Shown: positions 57,852 to 61,085 of the stretch, piece by piece | How the letters are laid out: the number at the start of each line of letters is the position of its first letter | Numbering within the stretch: position 1 is the stretch's first letter | DNA from: Candidatus Falkowbacteria bacterium CG10_big_fil_rev_8_21_14_0_10_37_14 | Lineage (GTDB): Bacteria; Patescibacteriota; Patescibacteriia; Patescibacteriales; Patescibacteriaceae | DNA: 64,000 nt | Assembly (NCBI GenBank): GCA_002778705.1 | Contig: PFAM01000023.1 | Span: forward strand, 33,188 to 97,187 | Direction: 5' to 3' | Position numbers and translations under genes: made by a program | The notes under the pieces: generated by a model | Seen by the model: the letters and a program-made list of their open reading frames with translations, nothing else | The model's database searches: none | Told to the model about the DNA's origin: nothing

Positions 57852-58241
57852 TTAAAATCCGCCTGCTATATTTTGACTCCAAAGCAATTTGTCCTGAACT
57901 TCATTATGAGGTATTTTTTCTAACTGCCTCAATCTTTTCTCTGCTTGCTGTTTTATACGTTCAGTTTGCCACCAGACACTAGCATAAACCAGTAATTCAG
58001 ACCAATAATTCGCCGCTTTATCACGTTTTACAAAAATATAATCCGTACTTAATAACTCTCGTAATTCTCCATATTGCTCTATCATAATCGTTAGAGCATA
58101 ACCACCGATCATATCATTGTCAGTAACTCCAACTTTAGAGTACGGCGGCAAAGGGCCTGATATATCTATCCTAAAAGCACTAAGCGGCGTCTCAGCAATT
58201 ATTTTAGCTGTGTTTTTGCTTAACATTAGCCTACTCTCCAT
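57852..58241 (-). CDS. hypothetical protein
   Basis: 129 aa ORF followed by a terminator. Confidence 0.65.
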   Translation of the reverse strand: MESRLMLSKNTAKIIAETPLSAFRIDISGPLPPYSKVGVTDNDMIGGYALTIMIEQYGELRELLSTDYIFVKRDKAANYWSELLVYASVWWQTERIKQQAEKRLRQLEKIPHNEVQDKLLWSQNIAGGF

Positions 58242-58329
58242 TTATTAAGAACTATTATCAATCTATATTTATTATACATATTTGTCAACCTCTTAACTTG
58301 ACTTTATAACCTCAAATTATTATAATTAT

Positions 58330-58356
58330 TTAGCAGTCCTTGACTAAGACTGCTAA
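58330..58356 (+). promoter_or_regulatory. CIRCE-like operator
   Basis: TTAGCAGTC-N9-GACTGCTAA; same 9-9-9 layout as CIRCE TTAGCACTC-N9-GAGTGCTAA with one symmetric substitution. Confidence 0.8.
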
Positions 58357-58368
58357 CAGTTTTATACT
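58340..58368 (+). promoter_or_regulatory. clpB promoter
   Basis: TTGACT-N17-TATACT; -35 lies in the spacer of the CIRCE-like repeat. Confidence 0.75.
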
Positions 58369-58430: not shown

Positions 58431-61085
58431 ATGTTTGATAAATTTACTAACAAAGCCCAGGAAGCTATCATTAATGCCCAAATTGTTGCTCAAGAATTTG
58501 GTCAACAACATATTGGATCCCTTCACATGCTCATTTCTTTAATCGAGCAATCTGACAGTTTAGTTCGATCTGTTTTAGAAAAATTCAAAGTCAGCCCAGA
58601 AGCTGTCTTAGAAAGAGCTGAAATTGAAATTGAAAAAATGCCTAAAATGCAGGTAGAGTCCAGTGTGGGAATGGTTCAAGGCACCGCCGAAATGGCCGCC
58701 GTTTTAGACGGAGCCAGTGCTCATGCTGAAAAAATGGGCGACGATTTTATTTCTACCGAGCACATCTTACTTGGCATCTTAACTGCTAAAAACAAAGGTA
58801 AGCAAATTCTAACAAATTTTGGTTTAGATTTTGAAAAAACTTTGGTCGTTTTAAAAGATTTACGGGGTAATTTAAAAGTAGATTCTCATAACCCAGAAAA
58901 TAAATATCGTGTTTTAGAAAAATACACCGTGAACTTAACTGACATGGCCGCCGCCGGTAAACTAGATCCCGTTATTGGTCGTGATGAAGAAATTCGTCGC
59001 ATTATGCAGGTTTTATCTCGTCGTATTAAAAACAATCCAGTTTTAATTGGCGAAGCTGGCACTGGTAAAACTGCTATTGTCGAAGGTCTAGCTCAACGCA
59101 TTATCGCTGGAGACATACCAGAAACTTTAAAAAACAAAGTTTTAATTGCTTTAGACTTGGGAGCTTTGATTGCTGGTACCAAATTTCGCGGAGAATTTGA
59201 AGAACGCTTAAAAGCTGTCTTGAAAGAAATTAAAGCTGCTGATGGTAAGTTTATTCTGTTCATTGATGAATTACACACCATTGTTGGTGCTGGTGCCTCC
59301 GAAGGTTCTATGGATGCCTCCAACATGCTTAAACCTGCTTTAGCCCGTGGTGATATTATCACTATTGGAGCTACTACTACTAAAGAATACCAAAAATACA
59401 TTGAAAAAGACTCTGCGTTAGAACGTCGTTTTCAGCCGGTTGTCGTTAACGAACCTTCACTAGAAGACGCTATTGATATTTTGCGTGGCATCAAAGAAAA
59501 ATATGAAGTTCACCATGGCGTAAAAATTACCGACTCCGCTGTTATTGCTGCCGTCAACTTATCTAGTCGTTATATTACTGAACGCTTTTTGCCAGACAAA
59601 GCTGTTGACTTAATGGACGAAGCTTGTTCTGCTTTGCGTATGGAAATTGATTCCTGCCCAGAAGAACTAGACCAGCTTAAGCGTGAAACTAAAAGATTAG
59701 AGATTAGTAAAGCTGGCACTGAACAGGAAATCAAAACAGCCGAAAGTAAAGAAAAAAAGAAATTGCAATCTAAACTTCGCCTTATTAGCACTAAGCTAGC
59801 AAAATTACAAGAACAAACCCACCAGTTAGACTTACATTGGCAAAATGAAAAAACTATTATTTCTAAAATTCGTTTAGCTAAACAGGAAATTGATAAACAA
59901 AAAGCTCAGGCTGATATTTATCAAAGAAGCGGTGAAGACTTAGCTAAGGTAGCTGAAATTCGCTATGGTCGTATTCCAGACTTAGAAAAACAAATTAAAC
60001 AAGCCGAAACCGAATTAGTTCAAATCCAATCTGCTGGTCAAAAGATTTTAACCGAAGAGATTGACGCCGAAGGTATTGCAAAAGTGGTCGCCAAATGGAC
60101 TGGCGTACCAGTTTCTAAAATGCTAGAGTCTGAAATTAAAAAACTAGCTCGCTTAGAAGATGAACTGGCTAAAAATGTTGTCGATCAAGACAGTGCTATT
60201 AAAGCCGTATCTAATGCTATTCGTCGCAGTCGTGCTGGGATTAACGAAGAAAAGCGCCCGATTGGTTCTTTCTTATTTGTCGGCCCCACCGGTGTCGGTA
60301 AAACCGAATTAGCTAAAGTGTTAGCTCATTTCTTATTTAATGATCCATCAGCCATGATTCGTTTTGATATGAGTGAGTTTATGGAAAAACACAGCGTTGC
60401 TAAATTAATAGGCTCGCCACCTGGTTATGTCGGACATGACGAAGGTGGACAACTAACCGACAAAATTCGTCGCAAACCATACAGCGTTATCTTATTTGAT
60501 GAAATTGAAAAAGCTCACCCCGAAGTCTTTAATATATTATTGCAAATTTTAGACGACGGTCAGTTAACTGATTCTAACGGTCGTTTAGCTAATTTCAAAA
60601 ACAGTATTATTATTATGACTTCCAATCTTGGCAATGAAGTAATTTCTGAATTCTCTATCGGCTTTTCAGACGCCACAAATAAGCAAGAGGCTGACACCCA
60701 ACGCCGTGGCGAAATGAAAGAAAGAATTGATAAAGTTTTACGTGGTCATTTCAAATTAGAATTCTTAAATCGTATTGATGAAATTGTCATCTTCCGTCAT
60801 TTATCCAAAGAAGGCTTAGCTAAAATAGTTGACTTAGAATTAGCTAAAGTAGAACATCGTTTAGGTCGCAAAGATATAACTTTGCGCATCAACAAAAAAG
60901 TTAAAACCATGTTAGCTGATAAAGGCTTTGATCAAACCTTTGGGGCTAGACCTTTAAAACGTAAAATTCAAGAGTTAATCTTAGATGAGTTAGCCATGGA
61001 GATTATTGAAGGCAAAATTAAAGCCGGCGACAATGTTGCTATTACCATCGGCTTTAAAAACAAAGTAGAGTTTGCTGTGCGTTAA
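58431..61085 (+). CDS. clpB: ClpB-type AAA+ disaggregase
   Basis: Clp N repeats, [18 protein letters not shown], long coiled-coil M region, [56 protein letters not shown]. Confidence 0.95.

Follow-up and report, generated by a model that had tools for sequence, protein, structure and literature searches.

Upstream of clpB, in a genome assigned to Candidatus Falkowbacteria, lies an inverted repeat that resembles CIRCE, the operator of the heat-shock repressor HrcA, with one base exchanged in each arm. The locus raises the question of whether this repeat is a genuine HrcA operator, and whether the exchanged bases reflect a repressor of altered specificity. An earlier note on the same 64,000-nucleotide stretch of DNA (hereafter the window) had proposed both, and had placed the −35 box of the clpB promoter in the spacer of the element.

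The clpB operator and its counterparts in the genome

The features considered are the following, with positions in the window unless otherwise indicated:

58298-58326, plus strand: conserved clpB promoter, TTGACT (58298-58303), N17, TATAAT (58321-58326), an 11/12 match to the consensus
58330-58356, no strand assigned: CIRCE operator TTAGCAGTC-CTTGACTAA-GACTGCTAA, recognized by its inverted repeat and its conservation
58330-58338: left arm of the operator, TTAGCAGTC
58339-58347: spacer of the operator, CTTGACTAA
58348-58356: right arm of the operator, GACTGCTAA
58340-58368, plus strand: second promoter-like match, TTGACT (58340-58345, in the spacer), N17, TATACT (58363-58368), a 10/12 match
58431-61085, plus strand: clpB, encoding an 884-aa disaggregase (Pfam Clp_N, AAA, AAA_lid_9, AAA_2 and ClpB_D2-small)
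L005:2107-2802 (G000:C24, outside the window): hrcA, 231 aa

The two arms of the operator, 9 bp each, form a perfect inverted repeat around a 9-bp spacer (9-9-9), and 74 bp separate the element from the clpB ATG (58431). It agrees with the CIRCE consensus TTAGCACTC-N9-GAGTGCTAA at 16 of the 18 arm positions and carries one C/G swap per arm, as the earlier note had described, which places it within the two-mismatch limit used for CIRCE elsewhere (PMC4245973, PMC5138195). Its location is also that of a chaperone promoter element, with clpB downstream and a sigma-70 match at 58298-58326. A search for exact copies of TTAGCASTC-N9-GASTGCTAA returned one match in the 64-kb window and none in 100 dinucleotide shuffles, indicating that the element is not a chance occurrence. 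The identity of the downstream gene is clear: residues 5-873 of the protein match TIGR03346 ClpB (1171 bits), and its nearest named relatives belong to Candidatus Falkowbacteria and other Parcubacteria-type Patescibacteria. A divergent gene (57852-58241, 129 aa) without a Pfam or NCBIfam family adjoins clpB, and a minus-strand promoter-like match (58288-58260) is separate from the CIRCE element.

In the 910-kb genome the same pattern was found at three places only, always without a mismatch, against none for the reversed pattern used as a control. When any base was allowed at arm position 7, with up to three mismatches, eight extra places were recovered, all with exactly three mismatches and near the background level (control = 4). 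The three elements precede hrcA-grpE-hsp20-dnaK, groES-groEL and clpB, thus including the heat-shock operons at which the earlier note had suggested looking. Both arms are canonical at the hrcA operon (C/C), which lies 40 kb from the clpB operator on the same contig; at groES-groEL the left arm is canonical and the right arm swapped (C/G), and at clpB both are swapped (G/G). Between grpE and dnaK, the hrcA operon contains hsp20 (L005:1166-1597) and a gene for a 90-aa protein without a Pfam family (L005:885-1157).

A single hrcA, with a Pfam HrcA match, is present in the genome. The helix-turn-helix (HTH) region of the protein aligns with the Thermotoga maritima HrcA structure 1STZ (E = 5e-15; profile E = 2e-23) and contains the signature SATxRNxM...PHTSAGRxPT. 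The protein is about 100 residues shorter than that of T. maritima (231 against 338 aa), a short form found throughout the order, mostly with 220-237 aa, and its effector half may differ. It passes the cut-off of Pfam PF01628 (215 positions), of which model positions 84-212 are matched, and scores 131 bits with NCBIfam hrcA TIGR00331 (338 positions), below the cut-off of 197; given this score and its length, automatic annotation may miss it. One other genome (G021) has two HrcA copies (G021:C45, L220; G021:C38, L236), with degenerate CIRCE elements upstream (three and two mismatches).

Conservation and promoter geometry in the order

The DNA upstream of hrcA, groEL and clpB was read in 61 genomes of the order. 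At hrcA, 60 CIRCE sites were found in 59 genomes; at clpB the element was present in 58 of the 59 readable genomes, and at groESL in 45 of the 49 examined, the misses being G044 and G056 (both of which hit a contig end), G017 and G027. Many clpB loci from a separate collection of other Patescibacteria also had a CIRCE element. G027 (93% complete) was the only one of the 61 genomes in which hrcA was not found by protein or profile search; its operator was found neither at clpB (L266) nor at groESL (L274), nor elsewhere with up to two mismatches, while its clpB promoter was retained (TTGACA-N17-TATAGT). The absence of the clpB and groESL operators is direct sequence evidence, and the apparent joint loss of gene and operator is suggestive of the link between them, coming as it does from one draft genome in which a gap at hrcA is possible.

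These data indicate that the clpB element is very probably a genuine CIRCE operator and clpB a member of the HrcA regulon (probability of about 0.93), with binding, repression and heat induction expected from the known HrcA/CIRCE system. The prediction of HrcA-type repression of clpB is strongly supported by the presence of hrcA, the CIRCE elements at three operons and the conservation across the order. The earlier note would have abandoned that prediction had there been neither an HrcA homologue nor similar elements upstream of other heat-shock genes or orthologous clpB genes; all of these were found.

Sigma-70 matches were scored around each operator, and the best promoter was taken per site. 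The −35 box fell inside the spacer in 57 of the 60 hrcA sites and in none of the 58 clpB sites of the order. At the clpB orthologues the −10 box was upstream of the operator in 57/58 cases, beginning 7-22 nt before it, with −10 as the most frequent start position (38 of 58), and at groESL it was further upstream in all cases (45/45), mostly at −13 to −17. The promoter-operator geometry thus differs by operon and is fixed per gene. The arrangement proposed in the earlier note for clpB, an operator embracing the promoter with the −35 box in the spacer, was not borne out: TTGACT and, 17 nt downstream, TATACT are present as letters, but the conserved promoter sits just upstream and is the better match. 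An intact TTGAC in the spacer occurs in this copy alone among the clpB orthologues of the order, and the match that it forms may be a second promoter or a coincidence. Since the clpB promoter lies upstream of the operator, it is the start site that the operator covers, with transcription predicted to begin at about 58333, within the left arm.

Base choice at arm position 7 and competing readings

Among 326 half-sites of the order, position 7 was C in 257, G in 54, A in 15 and T in none; positions 4 and 5 were invariant in all 326, and position 8 in 325. If the alternatives were equally likely, the probability of finding no T in 69 changes would be 7e-13, a figure that overstates the independence of related sites. 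Class-wide, in 383 genomes, C/C sites were found in 248, G/G in 26 and T/T in none, with controls at 0; T was accordingly rejected as an equal option. Position 7 admits three of the four bases but never T, indicating that it is relaxed but still read. The relaxation is greatest in the family of the source genome (C = 33, G = 31, A = 8), and in many other families the position is nearly always C. In that family the sites with none, one or two arms changed numbered 5/23/8, against 7.6/17.9/10.6 expected, with no excess of symmetric changes. As the arms vary independently, the symmetric swap at clpB is as expected by chance, and its symmetry was discarded as a sign of selection. Doubly changed sites are not specific to clpB either, since they occur there in G000, G008 and G010 and at groESL in G001, G003, G008, G009, G010 and G019. 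These patterns point to a tolerated base choice at position 7 (any base except T) that has relaxed at the level of clades, with no new specificity.

A different reading of the swap, advanced in the earlier note, is that HrcA and its operator have co-evolved a specificity distinct from that of classical CIRCE, with the repressor sitting over a promoter whose −35 box lies in the spacer. The change at position 7 is indeed structured by clade (phylogenetic signal lambda = 0.9), a promoter-like match does exist in the spacer, and HrcA residue 25 (PV[G/S/A]S, just before HTH helix 2) was the most associated column when the tree was left uncorrected, the mean changed fraction rising from 0.09 with G to 0.30 with S and 0.48 with A. 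This association lost its standing in a regression corrected with a ClpB+GroEL tree, in which residue 25 gave t = 1.95, a value reached by 31/565 control columns from ClpB (those of GroEL, with too few genomes, were left out). Moreover, one HrcA serves C/C, C/G and G/G sites in a single genome, the arms are uncoupled in the family, the −35 box in the spacer is not conserved at clpB, and the recognition helix, whose inspection the earlier note had called for, is the common SSATVRNEM, unchanged with respect to families with canonical sites. Co-evolved specificity is therefore very unlikely. A related possibility, to which we give somewhat less than even odds, is that the compact HrcA of this family reads position 7 in a truly relaxed manner, which would amount to an altered code for one of the best conserved operators of bacteria and could be linked to small changes before HTH helix 2. 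The G/G site could also bind HrcA more weakly, and selection for a weaker operator, leaving clpB less tightly repressed than hrcA, would be a refinement compatible with the HrcA/CIRCE explanation. Consistent with such grading, position 7 is changed in 35/116 clpB, 19/90 groESL and 15/120 hrcA half-sites, and the left arm at hrcA is almost always canonical; a gene-specific rank is contradicted by G001, G003 and G009, which have a doubly changed site at groESL and a canonical arm at clpB, and we consider selected grading rather unlikely.

Still less probable is a reading in which the inverted repeat works chiefly at the RNA level, as a hairpin in the 5' end of the clpB mRNA. A start near 58333 would allow a stem of 6 bp closed by a 9-nt loop, but independent changes in the arms break the pairing, the element at hrcA lies upstream of the start and is hence untranscribed from the hrcA promoter, and the element is lost together with hrcA; a secondary effect in the RNA is possible. 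Finally, several Firmicutes and Actinobacteria have clpB under CtsR or HspR, and either regulator could in principle replace HrcA here. The genome is without CtsR by a search that detected the control genome, Lactococcus, and neither the CtsR box GGTCAAANNNGGTCAAA nor the HAIR box CTTGAGT-N7-ACTCAAG was found within three mismatches in the 7 kb around clpB, leaving this option with a negligible probability.

A symmetric change of another kind was observed outside the order: the clpB sites of L062, L068 and L071 (Magasanikbacteria and Doudnabacteria) have the arms TTATCACTC or TTATCACTT and GAGTGATAA, altered at half-site position 4, a base that never varies in the order of the source genome. 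A shift in HrcA specificity is more plausible for these sites than for the G/G site at clpB.

Predicted regulation and known systems

In the favored reading, that of a CIRCE operator, an HrcA dimer produced from the hrcA-grpE-hsp20-dnaK operon would sit on the clpB operator and block RNA polymerase at TTGACT-N17-TATAAT; HrcA would repress its own operon too. Protein unfolding would loosen the hold of HrcA on its operators, and all three transcription units (clpB, groESL and the hrcA operon) would be switched on together. The HrcA of Campylobacter lies over the start site, probably obstructing RNA polymerase (PMC7464140), and repression of the three operons with release by heat is proposed here by likeness to that case. 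Comparison of sequences, for its part, shows the element itself, a conserved regulon of three sites, the loss shared with hrcA, the promoter geometry and the base preferences.

The system resembles the class I HrcA/CIRCE system of the Bacillus subtilis type in its 9-9-9 repeat, its hrcA-grpE-dnaK and groESL targets, its probable autoregulation and the HTH of HrcA. It differs in having clpB as a constant third target and hsp20 within the hrcA operon, in accepting G and A at position 7, and in an HrcA shorter than the T. maritima protein. Control of clpB by HrcA and CIRCE has been published for Mollicutes, in Mycoplasma gallisepticum and Spiroplasma melliferum (PMC4245973, PMC5138195), which likewise have reduced genomes with CIRCE before clpB, and in which sites with up to two mismatches were treated as functional; the targets there are clpB, dnaK, lon and dnaJ, as opposed to the hrcA-dnaK operon, groESL and clpB. 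In delta-proteobacteria (PMC545781) CIRCE precedes groESL and hrcA-grpE-dnaK (followed there by dnaJ), as it does here, whereas no clpB site is listed, and in the printed sites departures from the consensus are confined to arm positions 1 and 3, with C at position 7 throughout. A literature search, from which subscription journals were largely absent, yielded no pertinent description of a patescibacterial HrcA.

The system is thus ordinary in kind, and its modest new points are the base relaxed at the level of clades and the gene-specific geometry. A streamlined, mostly uncultivated lineage appears to keep HrcA control over three heat-shock operons, to which clpB firmly belongs, and to allow C, G or A, though never T, at one base of an operator known for its rigidity; this provides a testable prediction for the little-studied Patescibacteria.
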